Origin: Caldilineales bacterium
GTDB lineage: Bacteria > Chloroflexota > Anaerolineae > J102
Reading direction: 5' to 3'
NCBI GenBank assembly: GCA_013360575.1
Contig: JABWBG010000009.1
Span: 1 to 33,756, forward strand
DNA length: 33,756 bases
A program made the translations under genes and the position numbers. Within the stretch, counting starts at the first letter, position 1; every line of letters starts with the position of its first letter. The notes under the pieces are model-generated. The model ran no database searches and had not been told where the DNA came from. It worked only from the letters and a program-made list of their open reading frames with translations. This document shows, piece after piece, positions 5,697 through 31,102 of this stretch.

Positions 5697-5710
5697 ACCC
5701 AACGTGACCA

Positions 5711-5743
5711 CCCGTGGGCGCCGGTGTGACCGGCGCCCACGGG
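5711..5743 (+). other. Intercistronic hairpin between the binding protein and ATPase genes
   Basis: A perfect 14-bp GC-rich stem (5711-5724 with 5730-5743) closes a 5-nt TGTGA loop 15 bp after the lipoprotein stop codon. No T-run follows, so it is probably not a terminator. Such structures often protect the upstream message from 3' exonucleases and so favour the binding protein. Confidence 0.7.
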
Positions 5744-5757
5744 CATCCCTGCCTGCC

Positions 5758-7272: not shown

Positions 7273-7304
7273 GGCAGAGAGAACCACAGAAAGGAGTCGC
7301 CCAG

Positions 7305-8396: not shown

Positions 8397-8398
8397 CC

Positions 8399-10339: not shown

Positions 10340-10362
10340 TGCCATCAAGGAGGCTGTTTTTT

Positions 10363-10836
10363 ATGCTGATTCAGTTCACGCTCAATGGCCGGCCAGTTTC
10401 GGTGGAGGCGCCGGCGCATCTCACCCTTCTGACGGTGCTGCGCGATTATTTTCACCTGACCGGCGCCAAAGAGGGATGCAGCATTGGCGAGTGCGGCACC
10501 TGCGCAGTGCTGGTCGATGGCGAGTTGGTGAATAGCTGCCTGATGTTGGCGCCCAAGGTGGCGGCGCGTACGGTGCTGACCATCGAAGGAGTCAGCCCCG
10601 CGGATGGTTCGCTGAGTGATCTGCAGGAGGCCTTTATTGCCTACGGGGCGGTGCAGTGTGGTTTCTGCACACCGGGCATGGTGCTGGCAGGCGAAGCGCT
10701 TCTGGCCCAAACCCTCACCCCCACCCGCGAGCAGATCCGTACAGCGCTGGCCGGGAATCTCTGCCGCTGCACCGGCTACCAACAGATCGTGGATGCCATC
10801 GCCGCCGCCGGCGCGCAGCGCAAGGAGGTGAACTGA
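10363..10836 (+). CDS. Molybdenum hydroxylase, [2Fe-2S] subunit
   Basis: The 157-residue protein has two iron-sulfur domains. The plant-ferredoxin-like N-terminal cluster uses Cys39, Cys44, Cys47 and Cys59 (EGCSIGECGTCAVLVDG). The helical C-terminal cluster uses Cys99, Cys102, Cys134 and Cys136 (CGFCTPGM and CRCTGYQ). All eight ligands are present. It carries electrons from the molybdenum centre to FAD. The ATG at 10363 is chosen over the one at 10339 because AAGGAGG lies 8 bp before it and because family members start at this point. Its stop overlaps the start of the large subunit (TGATG), so translation is coupled. Confidence 0.93.
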   Translation: MLIQFTLNGRPVSVEAPAHLTLLTVLRDYFHLTGAKEGCSIGECGTCAVLVDGELVNSCLMLAPKVAARTVLTIEGVSPADGSLSDLQEAFIAYGAVQCGFCTPGMVLAGEALLAQTLTPTREQIRTALAGNLCRCTGYQQIVDAIAAAGAQRKEVN

Positions 10837-15681: not shown

Positions 15682-16719
15682 TCAGGAGGTGAGATAGTGC
15701 TCCAGGGAGCGAACTTTGCACACCAGCTTGGGCAGCTCATCGATGGTCACATAGCCGGGCCGGGCGTTGATCACATCGGGGATGCGGTTGACGATCTGCG
15801 AACTGGTGCCCAGAAGCGTGGGAGGCCTGTCATTGCGCAGGTGAATGGTGGGCGTGCCCCTGATCAGCCACTCGTTGATGTCATACTCCCCCGGCTCATA
15901 GACTTTGGCCGTCTGCGTCGCCTGGAACAGGATGCCCTCGGCGGTTTCGATCACGATCGTATTGTCCAGCCCCGTCACATCCCCGGCCGGGATGATCCGG
16001 TTGAATGCTTTGCAGGGCAGATCGTGATCGAGAATGATCGGCCTGACGCTCTCGGTGATGCTTTTCGTCGTCAGCCCCAGGCCCGCGATCTGGTTTTCCA
16101 GATCCATGCGCAGACAGACCACCTCGTCCCCCAGCGGCAGCTTTTCCTTTCGCTCGATCATGGCGTAGATATCATCGGCTTTCCTGCCCACTGCATAAAA
16201 TTCCGCCACCATCGGGCCTAATTCATCCATGTTGATCATGGCGCGGCCCTCGACCGACTCGATCCGGTGGGATGCGCCGGTCAGGGCGGTGATCAGGTTG
16301 ACCCAGAACACGTCCTGCATGCCCGAACCGGTCACAGTGACCCCGTTTTCCTTGGCGATTTGATCCAGTTTGGCGGCGATGGCGGGGCTGGATGTCCAGG
16401 CATAGGAGGCTTCCTCGGAAGTGGTGATCACGTTGAGGCCCGCTTCCAGGCACCGTTTGACGTGGGGATAGATCTTCTCCATGGCGGTGGCAACGGCGAT
16501 GAGCGCGATGTCGGCTGAGGTCTTGGCAAGCACCTCATCGGCGTTGTCGCTGATTTGAACGTTCAGTTTGCGACCGCTGCCGATGACATCACCCAGATCC
16601 TGGCCCACGTTTCTCAGGTCGATGGCGCCGGTGATAATGACGCCTTTGTCAACCATGAAACGGGCGATGTCTCGACCGATATTGCCAACTCCGTAGGATA
16701 TTGCTTTGATTTTTCGCAT
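15682..16719 (-). CDS. DapB-fold NAD(P)H dehydrogenase, 2,4-diaminopentanoate dehydrogenase-like
   Basis: A 345-residue protein with an N-terminal Rossmann motif (SYGVGNIGRDIARFMVDKG, GxGxxG at residues 10-15) and GAIDLRNVGQDLG, as in dihydrodipicolinate reductase N-domains. The rest (ITTSEEASYAW, VTGSGMQDVFWVN, EFYAVGRKADDI) resembles the 2,4-diaminopentanoate dehydrogenase family rather than DapB itself, which is shorter. Characterised members oxidatively deaminate an amine next to a side chain. It sits 79 bp downstream of the aldolase, in the middle of the GntR operon. An amine dehydrogenase role would fit a nitrogen-compound pathway. That role is inferred. Confidence 0.75.
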   Translation of the reverse strand: MRKIKAISYGVGNIGRDIARFMVDKGVIITGAIDLRNVGQDLGDVIGSGRKLNVQISDNADEVLAKTSADIALIAVATAMEKIYPHVKRCLEAGLNVITTSEEASYAWTSSPAIAAKLDQIAKENGVTVTGSGMQDVFWVNLITALTGASHRIESVEGRAMINMDELGPMVAEFYAVGRKADDIYAMIERKEKLPLGDEVVCLRMDLENQIAGLGLTTKSITESVRPIILDHDLPCKAFNRIIPAGDVTGLDNTIVIETAEGILFQATQTAKVYEPGEYDINEWLIRGTPTIHLRNDRPPTLLGTSSQIVNRIPDVINARPGYVTIDELPKLVCKVRSLEHYLTS

Positions 16720-16798: not shown

Positions 16799-17569
16799 TC
16801 AGGCGGCGGCGTGTGTTGATGAGGCGGGGAAGAGGACGCGGTGCAGCCCGGCCACCACCTCTTCGGGATGGGGCGCCTGCCACACCCGGCGGCCAAAGGC
16901 CACGCCCGCGGCCCCGGCAGCCACTGCATCGCCGGCCACCTCCAGGGTGTTATCATCGTTGCCGCTGCTTGGCCCGCCGGCCACGATCACCGGCAGGGCG
17001 GTGGCGGCGACCACCTGGCGAAAGGCGACGATATCGCCGCAGTAGTTGGTCTTGATGATGTCCGCGCCCACCTCCATCCCGATGCGCGCGGCGTGGGCGA
17101 TCTGTTCCGGCTGATAGAACTGTTCCGGCGGGGGCATCATCTCGGCCACCACAGGCAGGCCCAGGCTGTGGCACTGCTCGATCAACTGGCCGAACCATTG
17201 CAGCAGGAAAGGCTCGCCCCCGCGGCCAAAAAAGATGGAAACGGCTACCGCGTCGACATCCATGCGCAGCGCCGTGGAGGCCGTCACGACCGGGATCTCC
17301 TGGCGCGCCTCGGCGCTGAGGCCGGCGCTGACGCTGACGCGCAGCACGATGCCGACCTGCGGCGGGATCAAATCTGCCACCTGGCGCAGGAATCCGGGTG
17401 TGACCAGCAGGGCAGTGGCCCCGCCGGCCAGCACGGCGGATGTGATCTGCCGGGGGCGGTCGATGCCGGTCACCGGCCCCAGCCAAGGCCCATGATCGAG
17501 GGGAACGAGGAGGCAGCGGCGGTGGGGGCCAACGAGGAGTCGTTGCATGCGTCTTTGTTTTCCGATCAT
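16799..17569 (-). CDS. Class I aldolase, DhnA/LsrF family
   Basis: The 256-residue TIM-barrel protein has LLVPLDHGPWLGPVTG (about residues 20-35), the entry motif of DhnA-type class I aldolases. GADIIKTNYCGD holds the likely Schiff-base Lys, and LPVIVAGGPSS and GVAFGRRVWQ form the phosphate-binding end. Relatives include class I fructose-bisphosphate aldolase, LsrF, and ADH synthase. The ATG at 17569 overlaps the kinase stop (ATGA), so it is translationally coupled to the FGGY kinase, and the two enzymes probably act in sequence: phosphorylation, then C-C cleavage or thiolysis. A longer frame upstream to 17707 lies inside the kinase gene and is not used. The substrate is unknown. Confidence 0.85.
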   Translation of the reverse strand: MIGKQRRMQRLLVGPHRRCLLVPLDHGPWLGPVTGIDRPRQITSAVLAGGATALLVTPGFLRQVADLIPPQVGIVLRVSVSAGLSAEARQEIPVVTASTALRMDVDAVAVSIFFGRGGEPFLLQWFGQLIEQCHSLGLPVVAEMMPPPEQFYQPEQIAHAARIGMEVGADIIKTNYCGDIVAFRQVVAATALPVIVAGGPSSGNDDNTLEVAGDAVAAGAAGVAFGRRVWQAPHPEEVVAGLHRVLFPASSTHAAA

Positions 17570-19071
17570 TTCTGCTGCTCCGGGAAGGGTGAAGGGGGCG
17601 GGACGTGGTCGGGCGCTGCTTCTTGCGCGGCAAAGGCGCTGAAGCGGCGATAAGCGGCGTAGGCGGCGGCGTAGGCGGGGGCCAGCGGGGGCCGGCGTCT
17701 GACCCAACGCGGGGGCCCAAAGGTGCGTTCCAGGGCGACGGCCATCTCCTCTTGGCCCAGGGCCTGCTGGCAGAGGGCGTAGAGGGCGCGGGTGACCGTT
17801 TCTTCGGCGGTGTAGATGGCGGCGTCGTGGCCGCAGGCATCGGCGATGATCTGGGCCAGGCCGGGCGTGTTGGCGCCGCCGCCGGCCAGGGCCAACTCGG
17901 TCACGGGCAGGCCCATCTCGGCGTAGATGTCCAAGAGGTGGCGCAGGCTGAAGGCCACGCCCTCCATGACCGCCCGCGCCAGGTGTCGCGGTTCGTGGCT
18001 CAGCCGCAGCCCGTAAAACCCGCCGCGGATCTCATCCGACCAGTAGGGGCTGCGTTCGCCGGCCAGATAGGGCAGGAAGATCAGCCCCTCCGCGCCCGGT
18101 TCCACCGCCAGGGCCTTTTCTGCCGCCTGCGTGAAGCTGACCTCCGGCGATTGCTGGCCGAAGAATTGTTGGTGCATCCAACTGAGGGCGGCGCCGGTGG
18201 TGGAGGAAACGCCGCCGGCCAGGCGATAGGGGGGGAGGAAGGGGTAGATGTACAGCCGGTCGGCCCGATCCTGCGCGCGCTGACCGGGGGCAAGGGCCAT
18301 GAACACCATGGAGGAGCTGCCCAGCGAGCAGACGACGCGGCCTGGCCGGGGCGGCGCGCCGGTGATGAGGGCGGCGACATCGCCCACGCCGGTGAGGATG
18401 CCGGCGGCGGGATTCAGGCCCAGCTCGGCGGCGAGGGCGGGGCGGGGCGAGGCGATGATCGCATCCGCGGGCAGGATGGGGGGCAGCACGCTGGCGTCCA
18501 GGCCGACAAAGGCCAGGCGATCCAGCGCCCAGGTCTGCGTAGGCCAATCGAGCAGGGCGGCGCCGCCGCATTCGGTCAGGTCGGTGGCCAGCAGGCCCGA
18601 GAGGCGGAAACGGAGATAATCCTTGGGCCAGAGGATGGCCGCGGTGCGCTCCAGGACATCGGGACGGTGGCGGCGCAGCCACAGCAGCTTGGGCAGGGTG
18701 TAGGTGCTGTTGAGCTGGTAGGGCGGCAACTGGTATCGCTGCTGCAATAGCTCGGTCTCGACGTGGGCGCGGCGATCCAGCCAGAGGATCGTCGGCGACA
18801 GCGCGGTGTGCCCCGCGTCCAGCAGCACGGCAGAGTGCATCTGGCCGGTGAAGGCGATGGCTGTGAGCTGATCCAGGCGCAGGCCCTGCGCGCGCAGAGC
18901 CTGCGTGGCCGCGCAGAACGCGGCCCACCAGGCTTCGGGATCGCCCTCGGCCCAGCCGGGCTGGGGGGTGGCATAGGCGTAGCGCTGCGTGGCCACGGCC
19001 AACGTCTGGCCGGCCGCGGTGTAGACCACAGCTTTGAGGGCGGAGGTGCCCACATCCACCGCCAGCAGCAT
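17566..19071 (-). CDS. FGGY family carbohydrate kinase (xylulokinase-like)
   Basis: The 501-residue protein starts LLAVDVGTSALKAVVY, the phosphate-1 motif of FGGY kinases. FTGQMHSAVLLDAG and ILWLDRRAHVE are XylB-like substrate loops, GVGDVAALITG carries the catalytic Asp231, and LAGGGANTPGLAQIIADA is the adenosine motif. It phosphorylates a sugar or polyol using ATP. The start at 19071 is preferred over a GTG at 19095 because AGGAG lies 8 bp before it and the family match begins there. It follows the regulator gene directly and overlaps the aldolase gene. The last 50 residues are Pro/Ala rich and poorly conserved. Whether the substrate is xylulose is doubtful, given the neighbours. Confidence 0.87.
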   Translation of the reverse strand: MLLAVDVGTSALKAVVYTAAGQTLAVATQRYAYATPQPGWAEGDPEAWWAAFCAATQALRAQGLRLDQLTAIAFTGQMHSAVLLDAGHTALSPTILWLDRRAHVETELLQQRYQLPPYQLNSTYTLPKLLWLRRHRPDVLERTAAILWPKDYLRFRLSGLLATDLTECGGAALLDWPTQTWALDRLAFVGLDASVLPPILPADAIIASPRPALAAELGLNPAAGILTGVGDVAALITGAPPRPGRVVCSLGSSSMVFMALAPGQRAQDRADRLYIYPFLPPYRLAGGVSSTTGAALSWMHQQFFGQQSPEVSFTQAAEKALAVEPGAEGLIFLPYLAGERSPYWSDEIRGGFYGLRLSHEPRHLARAVMEGVAFSLRHLLDIYAEMGLPVTELALAGGGANTPGLAQIIADACGHDAAIYTAEETVTRALYALCQQALGQEEMAVALERTFGPPRWVRRRPPLAPAYAAAYAAYRRFSAFAAQEAAPDHVPPPSPFPEQQK

Positions 19072-19091
19072 GGGCGCGTCTCCTGTCACGG

Positions 19092-19862
19092 TCACGCCCC
19101 CACCGCCAGCGAGGCGGAGCGGACGACGTATTTGTAGCGGTCGCCGCGGCTGACCATGCGGGTGTATTCGACCGGCGCGCCATCGTCGGAATAGATGGTG
19201 CTTTCCACCAGCAAGAGAGGGGAGCCGGGGGCCGTCTGCAGCAGTTCATTTTCGCGATCGCTGCCGGCAATGGCCTGGATGGTCAACTCGGAACGGGCGA
19301 AGGTGACGCCCTGCCGGCGCAGCAGCCGCCACAGGGAGACTTCGGCTTCGATCTCGGCGGCGGTGAGCGTCACCTGCGGGGGCAGGCGCAGATGGGAGAT
19401 GGAGAGGATCGTGGGTTCCTCTTCGATCAGGCGGAGGCGTTCGACGATCCAGACCCAGGCGCCAACGGACAGTTGCAGGGCCGCGGCCACATCTCCCAGG
19501 GCCGGCTCCTGGCGGAGGGAGAGCAACCGCGAGCCGGCGCGCAGGCCGGCCGCTGCCAATTCTTCGGAGAAACTGCGCAACTGGGTCAATTCGCGCTGCA
19601 CTTTGGGCCGGGCCACAAACGTGCCCTTGCCCTGCTGCGATACCAGGTAGCCCTCGCGCACCAGTTCGTTGATGGCCCGCCGCACCGTGATCCGGCTGAC
19701 GTTGTAGGCCTCGCAGATCTCACGTTCGGTGGGGATGAGATCGCCTTCTCGCCAATGGCCTTGCTCCAGCGGTTCCAGCAGGGCCTGGCGTAGTTGGTGG
19801 TATAGCGGCACGGGCGCGTCCCGGTCGATGGCGGTTGAATCGAGAATGGTCAAGTTTCCCAT
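19092..19862 (-). CDS. GntR family transcriptional regulator, HutC subfamily
   Basis: A 256-residue regulator. The winged helix-turn-helix (about residues 15-84) has VPLYHQLRQALLEPLEQG, IPTEREICEAYNVSRITVRRA and LVSQQGKGTFVA. The UTRA effector domain follows (about 100-250), with SIYSDDGAPVEYTRMVSRGD-like C-terminal sequence seen as TIYSDDGAPVEYTRMV. HutC regulators bind short palindromes and are released by a pathway metabolite. An operator copy lies in its own promoter (19902-19921), consistent with autoregulation, and three more copies precede the neighbouring operons. The start at 19862 (ATG) is chosen since AGGAG precedes it; a GTG at 19877 is possible. It leads the kinase-aldolase-dehydrogenase operon. 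Its effector is unknown. Confidence 0.9.
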   Translation of the reverse strand: MGNLTILDSTAIDRDAPVPLYHQLRQALLEPLEQGHWREGDLIPTEREICEAYNVSRITVRRAINELVREGYLVSQQGKGTFVARPKVQRELTQLRSFSEELAAAGLRAGSRLLSLRQEPALGDVAAALQLSVGAWVWIVERLRLIEEEPTILSISHLRLPPQVTLTAAEIEAEVSLWRLLRRQGVTFARSELTIQAIAGSDRENELLQTAPGSPLLLVESTIYSDDGAPVEYTRMVSRGDRYKYVVRSASLAVGA

Positions 19863-19901
19863 GTTGCTCCTGTTCACGTGGTTTCGAGTGGATCAATTTA
19901 T

Positions 19902-19963: not shown

Positions 19964-20001
19964 CGAAAAAAACACAGCAGCGCCGGACCTTTACCGGCTG
20001 C
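19964..20001 (-). terminator. Rho-independent terminator of the sugar importer operon
   Basis: On the minus strand, a GC-rich stem (GCAGCCGG pairing with CCGGCGCTGC, with a small bulge) is followed by seven T (A-run at 19966-19972). The stop codon of the importer ATPase (19991-19993) lies in the loop. It separates this operon from the gntR promoter. Confidence 0.75.
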
Positions 20002-21088
20002 CATCGGCGAGGAGGGCTTCGCTGGCAGCGTCGAAGATGCGCAGGCTGGCGGGGGCAAAGTTCATCCACACCGCCGCACCGATCTCCATGCGCACCATCG
20101 CCCCGACAATGGCCTTGACGCTGTTATCGCCGCATTGCAGGGTGAGCAACGTCTCTTTGCCCAGCACTTCGGAGATGTAGACCGCGGCCGGCAGCGCGCC
20201 CGGCAGGGGCGCCAACTTGATCTGGATGTCTTCCGGACGGATGCCCAGCATCACCGGCAGGTGGTCGGGCGCGGCGGCGAGCTGGGCGCGTATCGCCGGC
20301 GACAACGGATAGGTGAAGCAATCGGAGGCGATCTGCCAGGTGTGTTTGTCCAGCCGGCCGGGCAGGAAATTCATGCCGGGACTGCCCAGAAAACCGGCCA
20401 CAAAGATGCTGTTGGGATGCAGATAGACCTCTTCGGGGTAACCGGCCTGCAGGACGCGGCCCGCGTTCATCACCACCAGCTGATCGGCCAGGGTCATCGC
20501 CTCGGCCTGATCGTGGGTGACGTAGACGGTGGTGACGCCCAGATCGCACTGCAGGCGCTTGAGTTCGGCCCGCATGCTGACGCGCAGCTTGGCATCCAGG
20601 TTGGAGAGGGGTTCATCCATGAGGAAGAGATCGGGCTGGCGAACGATGGCGCGCCCGATTGCCACCCGCTGCATCTGCCCGCCGGAAAGCTGCCGCGGCA
20701 GGCGATCGAGCAAGTCGCTGAGGCCGAGGATGGCCGCGGTCTCGGCCACACGCGCCTTGATCTCTTTGCGCGACATCCCGCGCGCGGCCAGAGGGAAGGC
20801 GATGTTCTTGAACACGGTCATGTGCGGGTAGAGGGCGTAGCTCTGGAAGACCATGGCGATGTTGCGCTCCCAGGCGGGCACATACGCCACTTCTTTTTCG
20901 CCGATGATGATTTCGCCGGCGGTCGGCTCCTCCAGCCCGGCCAACATGCGCAGCAGCGTGGTCTTGCCGCAGCCCGAAGGGCCGACGAGCACGGTCAATT
21001 TGCGGTCGGGGAAGTCGAGGGTGATGTCGTCGACGGCCACCGCATTGTGAAAGCGTTTGGCCAGATGGCGGACGGAGACTTTGCTCAT
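19991..21088 (-). CDS. CUT1-type sugar importer ATPase (MalK/UgpC/MsmX family)
   Basis: The 365-residue protein has Walker [10 protein letters not shown] (36-44), the Q-loop in [25 protein letters not shown] (from 134), Walker [13 protein letters not shown] (from 154) and the switch His in [17 protein letters not shown]-terminal OB-type (TOBE) regulatory domain follows with LGIRPEDI. It energises the two permeases encoded just upstream. The frame is open upstream to 21865 through the permease gene, but family similarity begins at the ATG at 21088. The 23-bp gap has no strong ribosome binding site. Such ATPases can serve several importers. Confidence 0.93.
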
Positions 21089-21111: not shown

Positions 21112-21963
21112 TTAATACTTCACGGATCCGGCGGTGAGGCCGCGGATCACCCAGCGCTGGAAGATGAGGACGATGGTGATCACCGGCAGGATCGCCAGCA
21201 CCACCCCGGCGGAGATCCAGGTCCATTGCTGGCGGAAGGCGAAAGAGAAGTTTTGAATGGCCACCGGGATGGTCTGCACATCTTTGATGCCCAGGGTGAC
21301 GACCGAGGCCAGCATGAACTCGCCGTAGGATCCGATGAAGGCGAACATGCCCGCGGCAAACATGCCGGGCAACGAGAGGGGGAGGATGACGCGCAGAAAG
21401 ATCTGGAACGGGCGATAGCCATCCACTTTGGCCGCGTCCTCCAGTTCGAAGGGCAGCTCGGCGAAATAGCTGGCCAGCAGCCAGGTGGCCAACGGCACGC
21501 TGTAGAACACATTGGGGATGACCATGGCGGGCAGGGATTTGAGCAGGCCGATCTCTTTCAGCAGCACGAAGGTGGGGGCGATGGTGACCACGGGGGGAAT
21601 CATGGCCCCCAGTTGCAGCAGCACCAGGGATTGCACCTTGAACTGGAAGCGCAGCCGCGCCACAGCGTAGGCGGCGGTGGCCGAAACCACCAGACAGAGG
21701 ATGGCGGTGGAGAGGGAGACCAGGAAGCTGTTGCCCAGCGGCGTGAGGAAGCCCAGCTCGTCGATGACGTTGCGGTACGCGTTCAGCGTCGGCTCCTCCG
21801 GCCAGAGCTGGATGGGGATCAGATATTCGCTGCCCATCGGCTTCAGCGAGGTGCTGAAGACCCAAAAGAGGGGGATCAGGCAGAAGAGGGTGATGACGAT
21901 CGTGGTCAGCAGGGCCAGCGTACGATCGATGCGCTTGGCGTTGCGTTGCAGCCAGGATTTCAT
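21112..21963 (-). CDS. CUT1-type sugar importer permease (MalG/UgpE type)
   Basis: A 283-residue membrane protein with six predicted hydrophobic segments, starting near residues 15-35 (TLALLTTIVITLFCLIPLFW). The cytoplasmic EAA loop is seen as ELEDAAKVDGYRPFQIFLRV with ILPLSLPG, where the ATPase docks. Its ATG overlaps the stop of the other permease by 4 bp (ATGA), so their translation is coupled. It works with the second permease, the binding lipoprotein and the ATPase to import a carbohydrate or related solute. Nothing in the sequence gives the substrate. Confidence 0.92.
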   Translation of the reverse strand: MKSWLQRNAKRIDRTLALLTTIVITLFCLIPLFWVFSTSLKPMGSEYLIPIQLWPEEPTLNAYRNVIDELGFLTPLGNSFLVSLSTAILCLVVSATAAYAVARLRFQFKVQSLVLLQLGAMIPPVVTIAPTFVLLKEIGLLKSLPAMVIPNVFYSVPLATWLLASYFAELPFELEDAAKVDGYRPFQIFLRVILPLSLPGMFAAGMFAFIGSYGEFMLASVVTLGIKDVQTIPVAIQNFSFAFRQQWTWISAGVVLAILPVITIVLIFQRWVIRGLTAGSVKY

Positions 21964-23123
21964 GCGCCTTTGAACCTCAGGTTTTTGCGGATGCGGCTGA
22001 CATAGAAGACGCCGAGCAGCAGCACGATCAGGAAAACGACCACGCCGTAGGCCGAGCCAAGGCCAAATTGGGCGCGGCTGAAGTAGAATTTGTAGGCCAG
22101 GGAGCTGAGCGTCTCTGTGCTGACGCCAGGCCCCCCGCGGGTGAGGCCGTAGATCAGGTCGAAGGTGCGGATGGCGTCCATGCCCCGGAAGAGCAGGGCC
22201 ACGGCGATGGTTGGCGTCAGCAGGGGCAAGGTGATGCGGCGGAAGCGATAGAACCCGCGGGCGCCATCCACTTTGGCCGCGTCATAGATGTCTTGGGGGA
22301 TGATGGCCAGCCCGCCGATCATGAGGATGGCGATCATCGAGGACATCTTCCAGATGTCGGCGACGATCACCGCGTGCCGCGCCAGAATCGGATCGACCAG
22401 AAAGATAGGCACTTTTTCGAGGACGCCCCACTGCACCAGCAGGCTGTCCAGACCCACATCGGCGTTGAAAAACCATTTCCAAATGGCGGCGGAAATGATC
22501 GGGGGGATGGCCCAGGGGATGATGATGATCGAACGAAGCACGCCGGCCAGGCGTCCGCCCACCCAGAAGGTAGTCATGGCCATGCCCAGCCCGATCCAGA
22601 ACTCGAAGAAGACCGCCACGCCCGTGAAATAGAGGGTGTAGCCCAGGGCGGCGCGGAAGTTGGGGCTGTTCCACACGCTGATATAGTTGCGCAGCCCGAT
22701 AAAGGTTTCACTGCTCCATGCGGTGGTGTATTCCAGGGTGTGCAGGCTGTAGATGAGTGTCTGCGCGATCTGATAGTAATAGAAAAGGAAGATGCCGACC
22801 ACTGCCGGCAGGATGAAGAGCAGCGCCAGCTCTGGCTCGCGCAGGTTGAGACGGCGCACCCGCCCCAGCCCGATGCCGAGCATGAGGCTGCCCGCCAGCG
22901 CCAGCGCGGCCGGGGCCGCGGCCAGCCCTGGACGCACGACGAAGACCAGGGCCGCGAGCACATACAAACCGCCCACTGCTGCCGTCAGCCCGCGCCAGCG
23001 CGTGCGCATCTGCCGGGCGGCGGCCCACGCCCGCGCCAGCATGACCAGCCCTAGGAAGATCAGGCCTACGATCAGAATATAAACCAGCAGAATACGCGCA
23101 ACGGACAGGAAAGTTGTTTCCAA
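21960..23123 (-). CDS. CUT1-type sugar importer permease (MalF/UgpA type)
   Basis: The 387-residue protein is longer than the usual 290-310 residues of UgpA-type permeases. The excess is at the N-terminus, where about 90 residues form two or three extra hydrophobic segments (VYILIVGLIFLGLVML, then AAVGGLYVLAALVFVV, then ALALAGSLMLGIGLG), as in MalF-like proteins with added helices. The conserved part begins near ELALLFILPAVVGIF. The EAA loop is IYDAAKVDGARGFYRFRRITLPLL. Its stop overlaps the next permease start. It follows the binding protein gene after 96 bp that contain a strong hairpin. Confidence 0.9.
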   Translation of the reverse strand: METTFLSVARILLVYILIVGLIFLGLVMLARAWAAARQMRTRWRGLTAAVGGLYVLAALVFVVRPGLAAAPAALALAGSLMLGIGLGRVRRLNLREPELALLFILPAVVGIFLFYYYQIAQTLIYSLHTLEYTTAWSSETFIGLRNYISVWNSPNFRAALGYTLYFTGVAVFFEFWIGLGMAMTTFWVGGRLAGVLRSIIIIPWAIPPIISAAIWKWFFNADVGLDSLLVQWGVLEKVPIFLVDPILARHAVIVADIWKMSSMIAILMIGGLAIIPQDIYDAAKVDGARGFYRFRRITLPLLTPTIAVALLFRGMDAIRTFDLIYGLTRGGPGVSTETLSSLAYKFYFSRAQFGLGSAYGVVVFLIVLLLGVFYVSRIRKNLRFKGA

Positions 23124-23219: not shown

Positions 23220-24641
23220 TTAGGGGCCGACCGCGTCGATCTGCGCGCACGCCGCGTCGAGGGCGTCTTGCGGCGCCTTCAGTCCGGCCAGCGCCGCGTG
23301 CAACTCCTCGGTGAGGATGGACGAGATCTCGGCAAAGCGCGGCGAGGGAATGGGGGGGATAGCTGTGCTGGCGACCTTTTCGATCAGCGGCATGTTGGGG
23401 TTGTTGGCGAGCACTTCGGGGTCGCTATACACATCCATGTGCGCTTGCACCGGCCCCTGCGAGAGGTTGAAGGCCTTCTGCACGGGGAAGTCGAACATCA
23501 CCTCCAACACTTTGGCCACGGCCTCCGGGTTTTCGGTGTACTTGTTAATCGAGAAGCCCCAGCCTTCGAAGAAGCCGGCGCCTTGGCCCGGCTCCACGGC
23601 TGGCATGGGCACGAAGCCCCATTTGTCGACGACCTTGGACTGGGCCGGGTCGTTCAGCCAGAACATCATGTCCTGCCGCCCGGTGTGGAAGACGGACAGG
23701 CCACTGGTGAACCGCACCTGCGACTCCTCTTCCTTCCAGGTCAGCGCCTCCAGCGGGGTGACGCCCTCATCCAGCAGGCTCTTCATGAAGTTCAGGGCCG
23801 CCAATCCGTTGGCGTCGTTCATGGCGCACTGGCCGGCGGCGTCGAAGTAGGAACCGCCGTGGCCGCTCAGGTACTCGACCCAACGGTTGACCAGCACCTG
23901 TTCCTTGAGCGCGGGCCAGGTCCAGCCGCTGAGTTCAGGGTTTTGGGCCGTGATCTGCTTGGCTGCATCCACCAGTTCGGCGTAGGTCTGCGGCGGGGCG
24001 ATGCCGGCTGCCTCCAGCAGGTCTTTGCGGTAGTACAGGCCGCCGATGCCGCCCCACCAGGGGCCCAGCGCCAGCAGTTGGCCATCGACCGTGAAGGCAT
24101 CGAGGTAGGCCGGGTTCAGTTTGCCCAGCACATCCGGGCTGATCAGGTCGTTCAGCGGCAGCAACCAATCGGCCTTGGCGAATTCGGGCAACCAGTACAA
24201 CCCCATGCCGATCAAGTCGGTGGTGCCATCTTCGGCCTGGAACCAGGCGAGATAGTTATCGCGCCAGGGGCCGGCTTCGTAGGGCATGATGTTCAGCCGC
24301 ACTTCGATGTTGGGATACTTCTTGGCCACTTCTTCGCGAATGGCATCGATGGGCGGCGCGGCCGGCCCGAAGGTCTTCTCGAAGTAGCCGTTGTAGGCGA
24401 GGGTGACGATCTCCTGCTTGACAGGAACCTCGACCGTCACGACCTTTTCCACCTCAACGGTCTGTACAACTTCCACCTCGACGGTCTTTACAACTTCCTT
24501 GATGACTTCCACCTGCTTTTCCACGGTGACTTCCACCTGCTTCTCCACCACCTGGGGGGTAGGCGTGGCGCAGGCAGCCGCCAGGGGCAGGATCATCATC
24601 AAGACGACGATGACGAACCAGAAACTGCGTTTCTTTGACAT
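23220..24641 (-). CDS. CUT1-type extracellular sugar-binding lipoprotein with Val-Glu-Lys stalk
   Basis: The 473-residue protein has a lipoprotein signal ending LAAAC (Cys24). Residues 31-77 form a stalk of V/E/K/T repeats (units like VEKQVEV, VVKTVEV, VEKVVTV), typical of Chloroflexota binding proteins and probably a spacer between membrane and binding domain. The binding domain (EIVTLAYNGYF onward) has the family 1 solute-binding motifs LPLNDLI, YRKDLLEAAGI, PQTYAELVDAAKQI and FVPMPAVEPG. It captures a sugar-like solute for the two permeases. AAGGAGGAG lies close before the ATG at 24641. No promoter was recognised in the 135 bp upstream. Confidence 0.92.
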   Translation of the reverse strand: MSKKRSFWFVIVVLMMILPLAAACATPTPQVVEKQVEVTVEKQVEVIKEVVKTVEVEVVQTVEVEKVVTVEVPVKQEIVTLAYNGYFEKTFGPAAPPIDAIREEVAKKYPNIEVRLNIMPYEAGPWRDNYLAWFQAEDGTTDLIGMGLYWLPEFAKADWLLPLNDLISPDVLGKLNPAYLDAFTVDGQLLALGPWWGGIGGLYYRKDLLEAAGIAPPQTYAELVDAAKQITAQNPELSGWTWPALKEQVLVNRWVEYLSGHGGSYFDAAGQCAMNDANGLAALNFMKSLLDEGVTPLEALTWKEEESQVRFTSGLSVFHTGRQDMMFWLNDPAQSKVVDKWGFVPMPAVEPGQGAGFFEGWGFSINKYTENPEAVAKVLEVMFDFPVQKAFNLSQGPVQAHMDVYSDPEVLANNPNMPLIEKVASTAIPPIPSPRFAEISSILTEELHAALAGLKAPQDALDAACAQIDAVGP

Positions 24642-24776: not shown

Positions 24777-25748
24777 CTATGCCCAGAAGTTGTGCGGCCA
24801 GGCATGCTCCTTCAACAGGGCCATGTCGCTGGCAGGCAGCGGGCCTCGTTCCGATGCGGCGGTGTTTTCCAGCACGTGATGCAATTTGCGCATGCCGGTG
24901 ATCACGCTGGTCACAGCAGGATGGCTGAGACAGAAGCGCAAGGCCGCCTGCGCCAGGGTATCGCCCTCCTGACGCAGCAGAAAGCGCAAACGCTCGGCCC
25001 GCTCCGCCACCTCCCGTCGCCGGTCGCCGGAGAAGTAGAAATCTTGAAAACTGCCGGGCGCAAAGGTGGTTTGGGGCGTGATCTTACCGCTCAGCGCGCC
25101 TTCATCGAGGGGGGATTTGACGATGATGCCCACCTGTTCGGCCAGCGCCAGCGGAAACAGCGCCGTCTCCGGCGCCTGCTCCCAGATGTTGTAGGTGACT
25201 TCGCAGGCGTCGATCAGACCGGTGGCGATGCCCGCGGCGCCATAATCCGGCTCCAGGGGATAATTCAACGATAGCCCGAAGGCGGCGACCTTGCCCTGCT
25301 GTTTGAGCTGCGTGAAGGCCTCTTGCCAGTCATCCAGGTGCGCCCATTCATCCAGCCAGACGTGCAGCAGCAGCAGATCCAGGCATTCCACCCCCAGCCG
25401 CTTCAGGCTTTTCTCGGCCGAGGCGATGATCCATGCCTTGGGGAACACCTCGGCCAGCGGCGCGCCTGGCGCTGCCGGCCAGGTAAAATTCATGGGATTG
25501 ACCTTCGTAGACACGTAGATGCGTTCGGGCCAGGCGGCGATGGCCCGCCCCACCAGTTTTTCGCTCAGCCCGTCGCCATAGTTGGGGGCCGTGTCCACGA
25601 AATTGACGCCCTGGTCAAAGGCCGCGTGCAGAGCTGTCAGCGATTCGTCATTGTCCGCGCCGGCCCACCAGGCGCCGCCAATGCCCCACGCCCCAAACCC
25701 GATCTCAGAGAGTGCAATCCCCGTCTTGCCCAATTGTCGGTAATGCAT
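24777..25748 (-). CDS. Aldo/keto reductase
   Basis: A 323-residue AKR barrel protein. VNFVDTAPNYGDGLSEKLVGRAI gives the catalytic Asp and Tyr, YVSTKVNP gives the Lys, and the DLLLLHVW strand carries the active-site His. The C-terminal SVITGMRKLHHVLEN region binds the NADP(H) phosphate. It reduces or oxidises a carbonyl, possibly a sugar, as in the D-threo-aldose dehydrogenase group. It lies 135 bp upstream of the sugar-binding lipoprotein and in the same direction, so it may be co-transcribed with the importer. The repeat-rich spacer 25749-26009 precedes it. The substrate is not known. Confidence 0.87.
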   Translation of the reverse strand: MHYRQLGKTGIALSEIGFGAWGIGGAWWAGADNDESLTALHAAFDQGVNFVDTAPNYGDGLSEKLVGRAIAAWPERIYVSTKVNPMNFTWPAAPGAPLAEVFPKAWIIASAEKSLKRLGVECLDLLLLHVWLDEWAHLDDWQEAFTQLKQQGKVAAFGLSLNYPLEPDYGAAGIATGLIDACEVTYNIWEQAPETALFPLALAEQVGIIVKSPLDEGALSGKITPQTTFAPGSFQDFYFSGDRRREVAERAERLRFLLRQEGDTLAQAALRFCLSHPAVTSVITGMRKLHHVLENTAASERGPLPASDMALLKEHAWPHNFWA

Positions 25749-26009: not shown

Positions 26010-27449
26010 CTAGATTCGCTTTTCGAAGTAACGCCGCGCCTCTTGCAGGATCCGTTCCAGTTCGGCGTCTTGCGTGGGGGTGGTGAAACGCTGCTCCGGC
26101 GCGGCCAGGATGCTGGCGAAACGGGCGCGGGCGTGGTCGAAGGCCGTCTTTTTGCCCCCCTCCTGCCACTCGGCGTAGGTTTGCGTGTCGGCGGTGGCGC
26201 CGGTGAACTGCTCCTTTCGCCACCACTTGCGCGTGTGCGCCTGGTTCAGATAATGGCCGGGGATGGGGCCGACCGCCTGGATCAGGGCCACGGCCAACGT
26301 CTCTTCGCTCATCTCCTCGCCGGAGATGAAGCGGCCCACCATGCCGGCGATATCGTCATCGAGAATGGCCTGCACCGGATGCGCGGTCAGTTCGTTGGCC
26401 ACGCCCAGGTGCAGCAGCATCGAATTGACGCCGGACAGGGCCGCGGCGATGGCCGCCATCCCCTTTTCGTAGCCGGCCTGGAACTCGATGCCCTTGGCGT
26501 TGACATAACCGGGGCTGCCATTGCTAAGGGGGAGGCCATAGCGCCGCCACAACTGGTTGAACATGGCATTGTTCAGCGAAGACCCGATCTGACCGAAGGC
26601 GGGGGAGCCGCTGCGCATGTTCAGCGGGGCCGAGAAATGGCCGATCAGCATGCGCTGGCCAGGCCGCAGGCACTGCGCCAACACCACCATGGCCAGGTGC
26701 TCCGCCGTGCTGACGATCACCGAGCCGGGCACGGTGGCCGGGCCGGTGCCGCCCATCATCGAGCCATCCACCGTGGTCAGCGCATACCCCGCCTCCACGA
26801 TGCGGCGGGCGGAGGCGACCGCGGCGCTGCTCCAGGTCAGGGGCGGCGAGGAGCCGATGGTGCCGGCGATCTCCTGGCCCAGCGCCTGCGCCATCTGAAA
26901 AGTGAAGAGTTCGGCGTCGTTGGAGCAAGCGGTGATCTGGTGCTTGTCGGAGTACTGCATGTGCAGCGCCACCCCGGCGGGCACGGCCAGGACATCGGGC
27001 AGGTCGTCGAACCCGAAATAGGGGTAGCAGCCCAGGTGATCCAGGTGCGGCAGCGCCTGCAACACGCGGATGCAGTCGATATACTCTTGCCGCGTGGGCC
27101 GCCGCGGTTCCAGCGTGTCGAGATCGATGCTCTGCATCCCGGAGGAGTGGGTGAAATAGAGGCGGTCGCCGCCCAGATGCAGGTCGTTGGCCCGGTTGGG
27201 CGCGGCCAGAGTGAACTGTTTGGGCGCCTCTGCCAGGCAGGCTGCCACCAGTTGGCGAGGAAAACGCACCCGCCCAGAGGCCTCGTCCACCGTGCAGCCC
27301 TGTTGGGCCAGGAAAGCCAGCGCCCACGCATCCTCGAACAGGATGCCCGGCTCGGCCAGTACGCGCAGCGCGCCCTCGTGCAGCGCGTCGATCTGCGCTT
27401 CCGGCAGCATCTGCCACGGGGTGCGGTTGCGGAAGCCCTGACGGGGCAT
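26010..27449 (-). CDS. MttB family corrinoid methyltransferase without pyrrolysine
   Basis: A 479-residue protein of the trimethylamine methyltransferase (MttB, COG5598) superfamily: GILFEDAWALAFLAQQGC, SSGMQSIDLDT, ACSNDAELFTFQMAQALG, TVPGSVIVSTAEHLAM and QAGYEKGMAAIAAALSG are typical segments. In the methanogen enzyme pyrrolysine lies just before a (T)D(S/A)K...QAGYEK stretch. Here GYVNAKGIEFQAGYEK reads straight through with Tyr315-Val316, and no in-frame TAG exists, so this is a non-Pyl member like the glycine betaine methyltransferase group. Such enzymes pass a methyl group from a quaternary or other methylamine to a corrinoid protein. Its partner is probably the corrinoid protein 22 bp upstream. 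The substrate is unknown. Confidence 0.88.
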   Translation of the reverse strand: MPRQGFRNRTPWQMLPEAQIDALHEGALRVLAEPGILFEDAWALAFLAQQGCTVDEASGRVRFPRQLVAACLAEAPKQFTLAAPNRANDLHLGGDRLYFTHSSGMQSIDLDTLEPRRPTRQEYIDCIRVLQALPHLDHLGCYPYFGFDDLPDVLAVPAGVALHMQYSDKHQITACSNDAELFTFQMAQALGQEIAGTIGSSPPLTWSSAAVASARRIVEAGYALTTVDGSMMGGTGPATVPGSVIVSTAEHLAMVVLAQCLRPGQRMLIGHFSAPLNMRSGSPAFGQIGSSLNNAMFNQLWRRYGLPLSNGSPGYVNAKGIEFQAGYEKGMAAIAAALSGVNSMLLHLGVANELTAHPVQAILDDDIAGMVGRFISGEEMSEETLAVALIQAVGPIPGHYLNQAHTRKWWRKEQFTGATADTQTYAEWQEGGKKTAFDHARARFASILAAPEQRFTTPTQDAELERILQEARRYFEKRI

Positions 27450-27471: not shown

Positions 27472-28119
27472 TCAGAGAGCGAGGAGGGTTTTGGTCAGCT
27501 TGACCGCGCCGGGCGCGGTGGCGTCGAAGCCATCGGCGCCGATGGCCGCGGCAAAATCCGCGGTGATGCCGCCGCCGCCCACAATCACCTTCACTTGCTG
27601 GCGCAGGTTGGCGGCGGTCAAGAGGTCGATCACCTTTTTCTGCTCTGGCGCGGTGGTGGTGAGCAGGGCAGAGAGGGCCAGCACCTGGGCGTTGTAGGTG
27701 GTCACGGCAGCGACAAAGGCCTCTGCCCGCACATTGATGCCCAGATCGTGCACGGTGAAGCCGGCGGCGCTGAGCAGGGTGGCCACCATGTTCTTGCCGA
27801 TGTCGTGGATATCGCCGAACACGGTGCCGATGACCACCACGCCCAGCCCTTGGCGGTGCAGGCCCCGCTGCGCCACCTCGGCTTCGAGGATGGCTGTGGC
27901 CGCGGCCATCGCCTCTGCCGCCGCGATCAGGTCGGGCAGGAACAATTCCCCGCAGCCAAACCCCTCCCCCACCTCGCGGATGGCCTCGGTCAAGGCGGCG
28001 AGCGCGGTGATGGGGTCGATCTGCTGCGCCACCGCCTGCTGCGCCCAGTGGGCGGCGGCGGCGGGGTCGTACTCGATGACGGCCAGTTCGAGGCCGTCCA
28101 GGATGTCATCGGCGGTCAT
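27472..28119 (-). CDS. Methylamine-type corrinoid protein (partner of the MttB-like enzyme)
   Basis: This 215-residue protein has an N-terminal helical cap (about 1-85, with GELFLPDLIAAAEAM) and a Rossmann-like B12 domain. FGDIHDIGKN holds the DxHxxG motif (Asp103, His105, Gly108), where His105 is the lower axial cobalt ligand. ALSALLTTTAPEQ and KVIVGGGGITADFAAAIGADG are the other corrinoid-binding loops. It shuttles a methyl group on cobalt. It lies 22 bp upstream of the mttB-like gene and 4 bp downstream of the Ftr-like gene. It is clearly different from the other corrinoid protein in this operon (30419-31102), so each methyltransferase probably has its own carrier. Confidence 0.92.
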   Translation of the reverse strand: MTADDILDGLELAVIEYDPAAAAHWAQQAVAQQIDPITALAALTEAIREVGEGFGCGELFLPDLIAAAEAMAAATAILEAEVAQRGLHRQGLGVVVIGTVFGDIHDIGKNMVATLLSAAGFTVHDLGINVRAEAFVAAVTTYNAQVLALSALLTTTAPEQKKVIDLLTAANLRQQVKVIVGGGGITADFAAAIGADGFDATAPGAVKLTKTLLAL

Positions 28120-28123
28120 GGCC

Positions 28124-29011
28124 TCATTCCTCAGGGATCGGGGGCAGCAGTTGGCGCAGGTAATACTTGTGTTTGCCGAACTCGCCGCCGAAGTTCATGG
28201 CGGTCAGGGCGATGACGCCAGGGGCCTGGGCCGCGGCCTGCAACGCCAGCCCCATGGCCCGGGCCATCAGATCGGCAGAGGCGCCGAACATCAGCAGGTT
28301 CAGCACCGATTCCACGCCTGCCGGCACTTTGCTGTCCTCGATCTGCGTGCGCAGGGAAGGGATGTAATCCAATTCGCGGTACACCTGCTCCAGGCCGTAG
28401 CCCATCGGCGCCACGCCGTCCACCGCCGCGATCGCATCTTTGGCAGCCAGAATGGCGGCGACCGCCGCGGCGGCGTTGGCGGCGAAGCAGACGAAATGGC
28501 CATCGGTGCCGTTGGCGCTGATCCGAAGTTCTTTTTCGTAGAGAAATTCGCCGGTGGTGGTGGGCACCACGCACATCCGTCGGCCCGCGACCAGACGTTC
28601 GCCATCTTTCCCGGCCCAGCGCGTCTGCGACATGGCAAAGTGGGCGTGGATGTCCACGCGCACGCTGTCCAGGCCGGGGATCATGGCATCGAACAGGGCC
28701 ACGGTGGGCACCAGCGAGGCCAGGGCCAGGCGCAGTTCGATCTCTTTCAGCAGCGCCTGCCGGTTTTCGGGGATGTGGGCCAGGGAGAGGAAGACGCCGG
28801 GGCGGTGATCCGGGGTCTCGTGCGGCCCGGCCACGCGTTCGATGCCGGCGTTGAGGGGGGAGCCGATCATGCTGGAACCGGCCGCGCCGGCGAATTGCTG
28901 GGCCGCGCCCATCGCCAACTCGGTGGTCATGGCCGTGATCAGCAGGCGCGAAACTTCCAGGGTCCAGGCTTCGGCGAAGGTGTCGTAGATTTCGACAGGG
29001 TGGGCGGTCAT
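28124..29011 (-). CDS. Formylmethanofuran:tetrahydromethanopterin formyltransferase (Ftr/FhcD)-like protein
   Basis: The 295-residue protein has the length of Ftr (about 297). The N-terminal half is a clear match: EIYDTFAEAW (7-16), VSRLLITA (20-27), NAGIERV (54-60), ETPDHRPGVFL (65-75) and later PTTTGEFLYEKEL. The C-terminus NFGGEFGKHKYYL (273-285) matches the NYGGKLGxYxFxL ending of Ftr. It differs in the segment that in methanogens and methylotrophs reads SGSKxGxKYKFL: here it is GYGLEQVYREL. Ftr moves a formyl group between methanofuran and H4MPT. No Fhc/Fmd/Fwd or H4MPT genes are in the window, so a different carrier or reaction is likely. It lies 8 bp after mtmB and 4 bp before a corrinoid gene. 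The start at 29011 is chosen by homology; the frame is open further upstream. Confidence 0.82.
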   Translation of the reverse strand: MTAHPVEIYDTFAEAWTLEVSRLLITAMTTELAMGAAQQFAGAAGSSMIGSPLNAGIERVAGPHETPDHRPGVFLSLAHIPENRQALLKEIELRLALASLVPTVALFDAMIPGLDSVRVDIHAHFAMSQTRWAGKDGERLVAGRRMCVVPTTTGEFLYEKELRISANGTDGHFVCFAANAAAAVAAILAAKDAIAAVDGVAPMGYGLEQVYRELDYIPSLRTQIEDSKVPAGVESVLNLLMFGASADLMARAMGLALQAAAQAPGVIALTAMNFGGEFGKHKYYLRQLLPPIPEE

Positions 29012-29019
29012 GGCGTTTC

Positions 29020-30408
29020 TCAGTGCAGGGGCATGCCCGCGGCGATGGCGGCATCCTTGACGGTGTCGTATATCCGCTGCCATTCGTCCGAAGGCTGGAG
29101 TGTGGCCAGATCGTAGCATTCCTGGAAGCTCTGGCCTTTGGGCGGGTTGCCCAGTTGCTGCTCGTATTTGGGCAGCAGGCGGTTGGCGATCTCGTTGGCC
29201 TGGGCCAGACTCATGCCCGCGCACCGTTTGAACACCTCGCCGGCGAATTTAACTTCCAGCGGGGTGATGTAGTTGGTGTATTTGCCGCCGGCAGAGCGCG
29301 GCCCTGTGCAGGAGGAGGCGCCGCACACGCTCAGCAGCATCATCCCCACTGCCGACTCGTACAGCAGGCACTCTGTCGCCGGGCCGGCCGTCTGATTGAG
29401 CACGGAATTGGCGCAGAGGTGGGTGTTGCGGCTGAGCGCCTGGAACACCACCCCCAGCGACCACAAGGCCGGACGACCGCAATTGCCCATCGTCTTCAGA
29501 TCGTAGGGGAAACTGGCCCCATTCACGCACTGGTAGACGTTGTAGAGCATGATCGTGCAGGCGATGCAGGAGAGGGCCGCGCCCTCTGGCCCGCCGGCGT
29601 AGCCGCCGATCATCGACCAGGAGCCGCCGTAGGTTTGGCCGCCGCAGTTGTAGGCGTGGGCCAGCTTCATCAGGTTCTCGTAGGAGGTCTTGATCTCCAC
29701 CGGCGAGAGCACCAGAACGATGTCTCGCTGCGGTTTGTAGCCGCCGGGGATGCCAAAACCGCCCAAGACGCCGTAATGCGTGGGCGAGGTGCCGACGGCG
29801 TAAAGGCCGATGCCTTCTCGCCCGGCCCTGGCGATGGCGCCGTAAAAAGCCTCTGCCTGCATCTTGCCTGCCAGCAGTTCGTAGGGCGACCCGGCCCGCA
29901 GCGGCGCGCCCCAGATCGTCTCGAAAGAGGGCCCTTCCAGGCAGTCCACCTCGGGGATGGCGGCGATGCCGGTCACCAGCGGCTCGAATACCTCCTCGGA
30001 CACGGCGATGCTGAGGGGGGAGACCCAGATCGGGGGGGTGGGGTCGGAGATGGCGCGGTGGACGAAGTGGGCGATCTCCCGGCCCTCGCCCAGGGTGAAG
30101 GCCGCGGGGGCCGCGTCCACGCCGGCCAGCAGCTCTGCTTGCGAGTAGCGGATGGCGCGTTGGGTGTCGGTGCAGAGCATGCCCACCTCTGTGGCGACGT
30201 CCACCGCTGCCCGATAGAAGCGATCGGCCAGTTCCAGATCCTGGTTGATGGGGTTGGCCGGGTCGCAGGTTTTTTGCAGCCCATACTCTTTCAGTTTGGC
30301 GGCGATGACGCCGGGGATGACGCGTGTGTCCCAATCGAACTGCTTGATCACCGGGCCGCGGTGCGCTTTGTCCAGCACATCCATGAGTCGATCACGATTG
30401 ATAGTCAT
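29020..30408 (-). CDS. MtmB (monomethylamine methyltransferase) homologue without pyrrolysine
   Basis: The 462-residue protein is the length of MtmB (458). Shared segments run throughout: LGEGREIAHFVHRAISD, SPYELLAGKMQAEAFYGAI, MIGGYAGGPEG, AGPATECLLYESAVGM, and at the end GQSFQECYDLATLQPSDEW. In the methanogen enzyme GMGV-Pyl-GPETS has pyrrolysine at 202; here GIGLYAVGTS has Tyr203, coded TAC at 29800-29802, so no amber codon is needed. The Glu of the GGxE motif near the active site is kept. Loss of Pyl suggests a different substrate or methyl-activation chemistry. Its partner is probably the corrinoid protein just upstream (10-bp gap). AGGAGGAG precedes the ATG at 30408; the longer frame upstream overlaps the corrinoid gene. 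Confidence 0.88.
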   Translation of the reverse strand: MTINRDRLMDVLDKAHRGPVIKQFDWDTRVIPGVIAAKLKEYGLQKTCDPANPINQDLELADRFYRAAVDVATEVGMLCTDTQRAIRYSQAELLAGVDAAPAAFTLGEGREIAHFVHRAISDPTPPIWVSPLSIAVSEEVFEPLVTGIAAIPEVDCLEGPSFETIWGAPLRAGSPYELLAGKMQAEAFYGAIARAGREGIGLYAVGTSPTHYGVLGGFGIPGGYKPQRDIVLVLSPVEIKTSYENLMKLAHAYNCGGQTYGGSWSMIGGYAGGPEGAALSCIACTIMLYNVYQCVNGASFPYDLKTMGNCGRPALWSLGVVFQALSRNTHLCANSVLNQTAGPATECLLYESAVGMMLLSVCGASSCTGPRSAGGKYTNYITPLEVKFAGEVFKRCAGMSLAQANEIANRLLPKYEQQLGNPPKGQSFQECYDLATLQPSDEWQRIYDTVKDAAIAAGMPLH

Positions 30409-30418
30409 CGTACTCCTC

Positions 30419-31102
30419 CTATTCCTGTACGAATGTCGCAGAGACGGGCGGTGTTTCCTGCGATTGCAGCAGGCGGTCGCACAAGCGCACGGCCGAGACG
30501 GCGCTATTGCCCCAGCCATCCGCGCCGATCCGTCTGGCATAATCGGATGTGACCGGGCCGCCGCCGACGATGACGAAGAAACGGTTGCGGGCGCCGGTCT
30601 CGGTCAGCAGATTGAGCACATCCTGTTGGTAGGGCATGGAGGTGGTCATCAGGGCGGAGAGGGCAATGAAGCGGGCTTTTTCGCGCAGCGCCACATCGAT
30701 TACCTCCATCGGCGGCACATTGACGCCGACATCGATCACGTCGTAGCCATGAACCGAGAGCATGGTGGCCACCAGATTTTTGCCGATATCGTGAATATCG
30801 CCGGAGACCGCGCCGATCACCACCTTGGCTTTGGTCTGCGTGGCCTGGCCGCTGTGCAGGTGGCGGGAGAGGATGGCCATGCTCTGTTTCATGGCTTCGC
30901 CGGCCAGCATCAGGCTGGGCAAGAAAATTTCGCCGGCTTCGAACATGTCGCCGATCTCGGCGATCGCCTCCGAGGCTACCTCGATGGCCTCCATGGCATC
31001 GACGCCGGCGTCGATGGCGGCCTGGGCGGCGGCGGCGGCGGCTTCTGGCTCGGTGTCCAGAATGCTGTCGTACAACTGCGTGAGCAGTTCCTGCTTGTCC
31101 AT
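30419..31102 (-). CDS. Methylamine-type corrinoid protein (partner of the MtmB-like enzyme)
   Basis: A 227-residue MtmC/MttC-type protein. The N-terminal cap has AGEIFLPSLMLAGEAM (about 56-71). The B12 domain has SGDIHDIGKN with DxHxxG (Asp102, His104, Gly107), then LSALMTTSMPYQQ and VIVGGGPVTSDYARRIGADGWG. It carries the methyl group between the methyltransferase and an acceptor. AAGGAG lies 6 bp before the ATG. It is the first gene of the operon, following an approximately 200-nt leader from the promoter at 31324-31352, and is followed after 10 bp by the mtmB-like gene. Confidence 0.93.
   Translation of the reverse strand: MDKQELLTQLYDSILDTEPEAAAAAAQAAIDAGVDAMEAIEVASEAIAEIGDMFEAGEIFLPSLMLAGEAMKQSMAILSRHLHSGQATQTKAKVVIGAVSGDIHDIGKNLVATMLSVHGYDVIDVGVNVPPMEVIDVALREKARFIALSALMTTSMPYQQDVLNLLTETGARNRFFVIVGGGPVTSDYARRIGADGWGNSAVSAVRLCDRLLQSQETPPVSATFVQE

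Follow-up and report, generated by a model that had tools for sequence, protein, structure and literature searches.

A pyrrolysine-free MtmB-family protein in a conserved Anaerolineae gene cluster, a probable methyltransferase for a larger N-methyl compound

Results

The window, the whole 33,756-nucleotide stretch of Caldilineales DNA analysed here, encodes a member of the monomethylamine methyltransferase (MtmB) family that has tyrosine in place of pyrrolysine (Pyl) and belongs to a gene cluster conserved in six genomes of the class. We consider it probable that the protein is a non-Pyl corrinoid methyltransferase for an N-methyl compound larger than, and other than, methylamine, with the cluster handling that compound. 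This reading draws on the family and fold of the protein, the replacement of five columns conserved in three Pyl rows, the conservation of the cluster in 6/6 genomes from five families, and a RACo corrinoid activator in all six. The genes concerned are as follows.

29020..30408, minus: non-Pyl MtmB-family methyltransferase; Tyr203 codon TAC at 29802-29800
30419..31102, minus: cognate corrinoid protein CorA; B12-binding domains over cut-off, beside MtmB in 6/6
28124..29011, minus: FTR-like protein, a divergent relative of formylmethanofuran:H4MPT formyltransferase (profile scan, alignment)
27472..28119, minus: second corrinoid protein CorB (domain scan); 3/6 clusters
26010..27449, minus: MttB-family methyltransferase, no in-frame TAG; nearest solved structures 2qne and MtgB 9yce; 6/6 clusters
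24777..25748, minus: aldo/keto reductase, AKR (domain scan); 6/6 clusters
23220..24641, minus: solute-binding protein of a carbohydrate-type ABC importer; best PDB matches are maltose/trehalose-binding proteins
21960..23123, minus: ABC permease, function by position; 6/6 clusters
21112..21963, minus: ABC permease, function by position; 6/6 clusters
19991..21088, minus: ABC ATPase, named from sequence; 6/6 clusters
19092..19877, minus: GntR-like regulator, named from sequence; 5/6 clusters
17566..19095, minus: FGGY carbohydrate kinase, xylulokinase-like; 6/6 genomes
16799..17707, minus: class I DeoC/LsrF-type aldolase; 6/6 genomes
15682..16719, minus: 2,4-diaminopentanoate dehydrogenase-like protein; among the six, only in the window's cluster
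14241..15629, minus: amidohydrolase of the SAH/MTA/5'-deoxyadenosine deaminase group; 6/6 genomes
13180..14202, minus: zinc-dependent alcohol dehydrogenase, ADH; 6/6 genomes
9443-10339, plus: xanthine-dehydrogenase-type (XDH-type) FAD subunit (scanned)
10339-10836, plus: XDH-type 2Fe-2S subunit, named from sequence
about 10656-13172, plus: XDH-type Mo subunit (scanned)
4680..9343, plus: PnrA/BMP-type ABC importer, comprising a binding protein (4680-5696), an ATPase and a pair of permeases

The window protein has the MtmB fold

The MtmB-like gene runs on the minus strand from 30408 to 29020 and encodes 462 residues followed by a stop; translating this interval on the plus strand gives a different open frame, which is not MtmB. 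Homology to MtmB is far beyond chance. The Pfam MtmB profile (PF05369) scores 249.9 bits (cut-off 25) over residues 9-452, and phmmer aligns residues 9-451 with Methanosarcina barkeri MtmB1 (PDB 1l2q, E 1e-50). The AlphaFold model (pLDDT 95.5, pTM 0.94) superposes on 1nth with Z 57.4 and an rmsd of 1.6 Å over 453 residues (VIA), and Foldseek gives a TM score of 0.94 to 1l2q. The whole-length likeness to the methanogen enzyme claimed in the first-pass annotation is thus borne out in both sequence and fold.

That annotation also placed Tyr203 at the Pyl202 position, leaving the strand unstated, and proposed an alignment and structural comparison as a check; both agree with the placement. phmmer sets GIGLYAVGTS opposite GMGVXGPETS of 1l2q, where X is Pyl202, and MAFFT puts Tyr203 in the Pyl202 column, as it does in a wider set with three Pyl rows. 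Residue 203 lies within strand 201-204 of the model, in agreement with the reported anchoring of Pyl202 to a barrel strand in MtmB (PMC9842639). A hidden Pyl codon or a misalignment at residue 203 is ruled out by the open frame and by the agreement of phmmer, MAFFT and the model. A tRNA search of the window found none.

The active site is remodelled in the Tyr clade

The Pyl202 column was surveyed in 69 homologues (70 candidates covering at least 400 query residues, minus two fused entries and plus M. barkeri MtmB1); 40 of these rows were used in one further analysis. The column holds N in 23 rows, I in 11, Y in 6, L in 6, H in 5, V in 5, G in 4, Pyl in 3, Q in 2, a gap in 2, P in 1 and T in 1. 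The idea that Tyr is a special catalytic replacement was rejected, as the column is this variable. In a quick tree, which has several long branches and weak deep forks, the six rows with Tyr group together as a single clade (SH-aLRT 100). Its sister is a pair of tandem copies, with G and Q at this column, from the Bathyarchaeon Ca. Hecatella orcuttiae (support 99), and the Pyl rows are placed elsewhere, away from the Tyr clade. The phylogeny, suggested earlier as a check, indicates that Tyr is fixed in its small clade (6/6 Anaerolineae genomes), yet it is one of many replacements.

Of the residues that mark a functional MtmB, Pyl at 202 is Tyr in all six clade members (TAC in the window). At five further columns all three Pyl rows agree (E205, E229, E259, Q333 and Y335), and there the clade members have G, L, G, V and N, again in 6/6. 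We take E229, E259 and Q333 to be substrate-binding residues of the MtmB active site. Y203, Y260, W264, F300 and Y302 are invariant across the Tyr clade; since residues 260 and 264 alternate with 262 (the equivalent of E259) in one strand, Tyr260 and Trp264 should face the barrel. Judged from these replacements, the active site appears remodelled so far that monomethylamine is unlikely as substrate. The earlier suggestion that loss of Pyl implies a new substrate or mechanism is supported in part by this remodelling, but Tyr itself is not the key to it, given the variability of its column.

The gene cluster is conserved in the Tyr clade

The window's genome has one MtmB. Among 396 genomes of the class, 26 have an MtmB match at E 1e-20 or better, and six (including the window's), representing five families, carry the Tyr type with at least 67% identity. 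Plasmid records contained no MtmB relative. In each of the two genome sets surveyed, almost every MtmB-family gene is an open frame that lacks pyrrolysine.

Cluster conservation was assessed by tblastn of 26 reference proteins against the six genomes, with further contigs added. MtmB, CorA, the four ABC importer genes, AKR, MttB, the FTR-like gene, ADH, the amidohydrolase, the kinase and the aldolase were found in 6/6. GntR was present in 5/6, as were GlcD and GlcF (absent from the window); an MtgA-like gene occurs in 4/6 clusters (absent from the window's and that of G300), CorB in 3/6, and an AFOR on the same contigs in 4/6. The best relative of the MtgA type in the window's genome is 30% identical and lies on another contig. 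The set is spread across two or three contigs in G212, G300 and G106, and in the latter two one gene is apparently split over two contig ends. The 15682-16719 dehydrogenase-like gene occupies the place of GlcD/GlcF in the other clusters.

The first-pass annotation had named the corrinoid protein at 30419-31102 as a partner for MtmB, and its domain scores and the pairing in all six genomes identify it as MtmB's own partner gene. Its DIHDIG sequence is presumably the cobalamin-binding motif. Upstream of it, 31360-32193 is an open frame of 277 residues with no Pfam match at 1e-5. The MttB-family neighbour, which has no in-frame TAG, suggests two methyl transfers in one pathway. The solute-binding protein has an orthologue in locus L044 assigned to SBP_bac_1. 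The XDH-type set (9443..13172, plus strand) is convergent with the cluster.

An FTR-like protein accompanies the Tyr-type MtmB

The FTR-like protein is at least 55% identical in all six Tyr-clade genomes. A further 16 genomes have matches of 32-53%, of which those at 53 and 47% are short pieces, and close orthologues occur in exactly the same 6/396 genomes as the Tyr-type MtmB. The 6/6 co-occurrence has p 1.9e-13 if independent, a figure that ignores shared descent, though five families are represented.

The protein resembles Ftr/FhcD in passing the Pfam FTR and FTR_C cut-offs; it is unlike them in that it falls below the NCBIfam cut-offs (171.8 of 297 bits for NF002554 and 155.9 of 292.6 bits for TIGR03119), has lost a loop of about 14 residues in 6/6 clade members that is present in nine other aligned FTRs, has Asn in 6/6 for the Glu of a motif conserved in those nine, and has no accompanying Mch. 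We take this Glu to be the catalytic Glu245 of M. kandleri. The model has a pLDDT of 84.9. The literature searched offered no helpful information about FTR-like proteins. The orthologues at loci L056-L060 share the lost loop and the Glu-to-Asn replacement. A role as part of the H4MPT pathway is not supported, as Mch (PF02289), the H4MPT enzyme looked for, was found in 0/6 genomes. A repurposed function is likely, judging by these sequence features.

Relatives of the cluster lie near ring-degrading and nucleoside-type genes

The MtmB frame of G300 shares 4 bases with that of an SsnA-like amidohydrolase. After these two, in the same orientation, come genes for a carbamoyltransferase, two AFORs and a PreA-like protein. 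The G020 cluster has, past the binding-protein gene, two AFORs together with a fragment that matches the SsnA-like protein at 47% identity. In the Ca. Hecatella genome, C1 505500-535545 encodes three MtmBs together with a corrinoid protein, an importer of the Bmp type and amidohydrolases. The same stretch also encodes an SsnA-like protein, which at 429.7 bits falls below the cut-off of 444, and PreA, which at 470 bits exceeds its own, as well as two carbamoyltransferases, an AFOR (49% identical to that of G300), PreT-like, dihydropyrimidinase-like and AA_kinase proteins, and two PLP enzymes. The PLP enzymes reach the NCBIfam cut-offs for cysteine and threonine synthase, not that of a diaminopropionate lyase. 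For the carbamoyltransferases, the N-acetylornithine type gives better scores than the YgeW type, and the window's amidohydrolase is under every NCBIfam equivalog cut-off.

The reductive uric acid pathway is described as comprising XdhD, YgfK or UacX, SsnA, HyuA, YgeW, YgeY and YgeX (PMC12507026). The likeness to its cluster is partial: in G300 and Ca. Hecatella, MtmB has as neighbours genes of the SsnA-like, carbamoyltransferase and PreA/UacX (DHO_dh) types, but these are mostly below equivalog cut-offs and the cluster is complete in no locus. The window lacks the SsnA, HyuA, YgeW, YgfK/UacX and YgeX set, and has only the XDH-type set and the nucleoside-type amidohydrolase.

BMP proteins bind nucleosides in several bacteria, according to literature titles and abstracts. 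Of 29 MtmB loci in 20 chosen genomes, 11 have a BMP-type permease gene no more than 10 kb away, against 0.76 expected from rounded genome sizes. The 29 loci were obtained by merging genes within 10 kb and adding one G396 MtmB (181098), and for some of them the contig ends too soon for a neighbour to be visible. The tail probability is 1.5e-11 assuming independent loci and 0.006 with four hits; five of the 11 form one syntenic archaeal group, hence the loci are not independent. The remainder comprise two Ca. Hecatella loci and four from Anaerolineae outside the Tyr clade. No Tyr-clade locus is among the 11, the window's BMP genes being about 20 kb from MtmB.

Several archaeal loci were also recorded. 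At five of them (L140-L144), an MtmB-like gene whose Pyl column holds His is found with a corrinoid protein and an importer of the BMP type; L140 has an MtaB-family gene and RACo nearby. Ca. Hecatella orcuttiae (G396; L119, L137, L138, L139) carries six MtmB genes of the non-Pyl kind, several of which adjoin Bmp-type importers and pyrimidine-purine-type ring genes. In the same phylum, L145 7320-8738 and L146 2296-3711 are MtmB genes that have TAG as the codon of the Pyl column, and L145 has a second, non-Pyl MtmB on the opposite strand.

Discussion

In the pathway we propose, the cluster's ABC system would import an N-methyl compound, and its methyl group, on a cationic or protonated nitrogen, would be held in an aromatic-lined barrel (Tyr203, Tyr260, Trp264, Phe300, Tyr302) and passed by direct SN2 transfer to Co(I) of the adjoining corrinoid protein. 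A RACo-type activator encoded elsewhere would keep the corrinoid reduced, and the MtgA-like protein found in four of the six clusters would pass the methyl to tetrahydrofolate. The remainder of the substrate would be degraded by the amidohydrolase, dehydrogenases, kinase and aldolase, with a GlcD/GlcF-type oxidase in 5/6.

The likeliest single class of substrate, put forward tentatively, is a purine-, pteridine- or nucleoside-like N-methyl compound with a sugar or polyol part. The ring-type neighbours in G300 and Ca. Hecatella, the BMP association at 11/29 loci and the BMP and XDH-type genes of the window all point this way. Against it, the conserved importer is of the maltose/trehalose and not the nucleoside type, and the ring-cleaving set is absent from the cluster itself in 4/6 Tyr-clade genomes. 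The amidohydrolase, carbamoyltransferase and PLP-enzyme scores likewise argue against this class, as do the dependence among the BMP loci and the lack of any Tyr-clade member there. No nucleosidase or nucleoside phosphorylase was recognised among the cluster genes (assessed without a profile), which also counts against it. A wider proposal, made with much the same reserve, is that the Anaerolineae and Bathyarchaeia MtmB branch may demethylate purine-, pteridine- or nucleoside-like compounds to a corrinoid, with the FTR-like protein as a repurposed pterin-binding enzyme of the same pathway.

The claim in the first-pass annotation that non-Pyl MtmB proteins have no assigned substrate held until March 2026 and is now outdated. 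MtqB is reported to be a non-Pyl MtmB acting on tetramethylammonium and choline and weakly on methylamine (PMC13044021); it is the one enzyme among non-Pyl MtmBs for which a published substrate was found in the literature. A single tree in the same source contains 1,061 MtmBs, both Pyl and non-Pyl. Non-Pyl MtmB as such is thus already known, and what appears to be new is the genomic setting.

That the sole characterised non-Pyl MtmB uses choline and tetramethylammonium (PMC13044021) tells against our main reading, and a choline-like quaternary amine is the main rival to the purine-like class, itself a serious but tentative possibility. The protein would act, like MtqB, on choline, tetramethylammonium, a betaine or a choline-bearing polyol (for instance a glycerophosphocholine-type headgroup), while the MttB-like neighbour would take a second quaternary amine. 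The aromatic residues fit a cation, the MttB neighbour is nearest to MtgB, a glycine betaine enzyme, and the carbohydrate-type importer and kinase would fit a polyol conjugate. Such a substrate leaves no role for the deaminase, the FTR-like protein or the ring-degrading neighbours, however, and the Figure 6 legend of PMC13044021 describes MtqB as branching close to the Pyl MtmBs, whereas the Tyr clade lies elsewhere in the present tree. A methylated amino-sugar or aminocyclitol is a more doubtful candidate. After demethylation, the action of the dehydrogenases, kinase and aldolase on its skeleton would yield triose phosphate plus an aldehyde of two or three carbons. Such a route would employ the binding protein of carbohydrate type, the FGGY kinase, the LsrF/DeoC-type aldolase, both dehydrogenases and GlcD/GlcF, but the nucleoside-type amidohydrolase and the ring-degrading genes of the archaeal and G300 relatives would be unexplained. 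Both are narrower forms of the general N-methyl reading, and their likelihoods overlap with it. It is very improbable that monomethylamine is still the substrate, used less efficiently without pyrrolysine: MtqB does retain low methylamine activity (11 nmol/min/mg, PMC13044021), but at the five columns that do not vary among the three Pyl rows all six clade members have other residues, and a sugar-type transporter, kinase, aldolase and deaminase would be superfluous.

The Tyr clade offers a bounded, testable case: a single methyltransferase with a single corrinoid protein and importer, along with a fixed catabolic gene set. If the substrate is indeed an N-methylated purine or nucleoside, the cluster would provide an oxygen-free corrinoid route for nucleobase demethylation. 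No report of corrinoid demethylation of purines was found in the literature searched, which is weak evidence of absence. More generally, the results caution that an MtmB gene in a genome should not be taken as a sign of methylamine use. Ca. Hecatella has been inferred to be a possible methylamine user (PMC9635834); the five MtmB-like genes listed for it are open without an internal stop, which calls for caution on that reported inference.

Among known systems, MtmB of M. barkeri (1nth, 1l2q) shares with the window protein its family, full-length fold and an adjacent corrinoid gene; the window protein differs in its 27% identity, the lack of pyrrolysine and the five residues changed to G, L, G, V and N. 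MtqB of Methanococcoides methylutens Q3c, compared by its published description, has in common that it is a non-Pyl MtmB with a cognate corrinoid protein, but it belongs to an archaeal methanogen and delivers the methyl to coenzyme M. MtgB and other non-Pyl MttB enzymes are likewise pyrrolysine-free corrinoid methyltransferases, with a relative in the window's cluster, yet they constitute a family separate from the window MtmB (about 11% identity, Z about 24).
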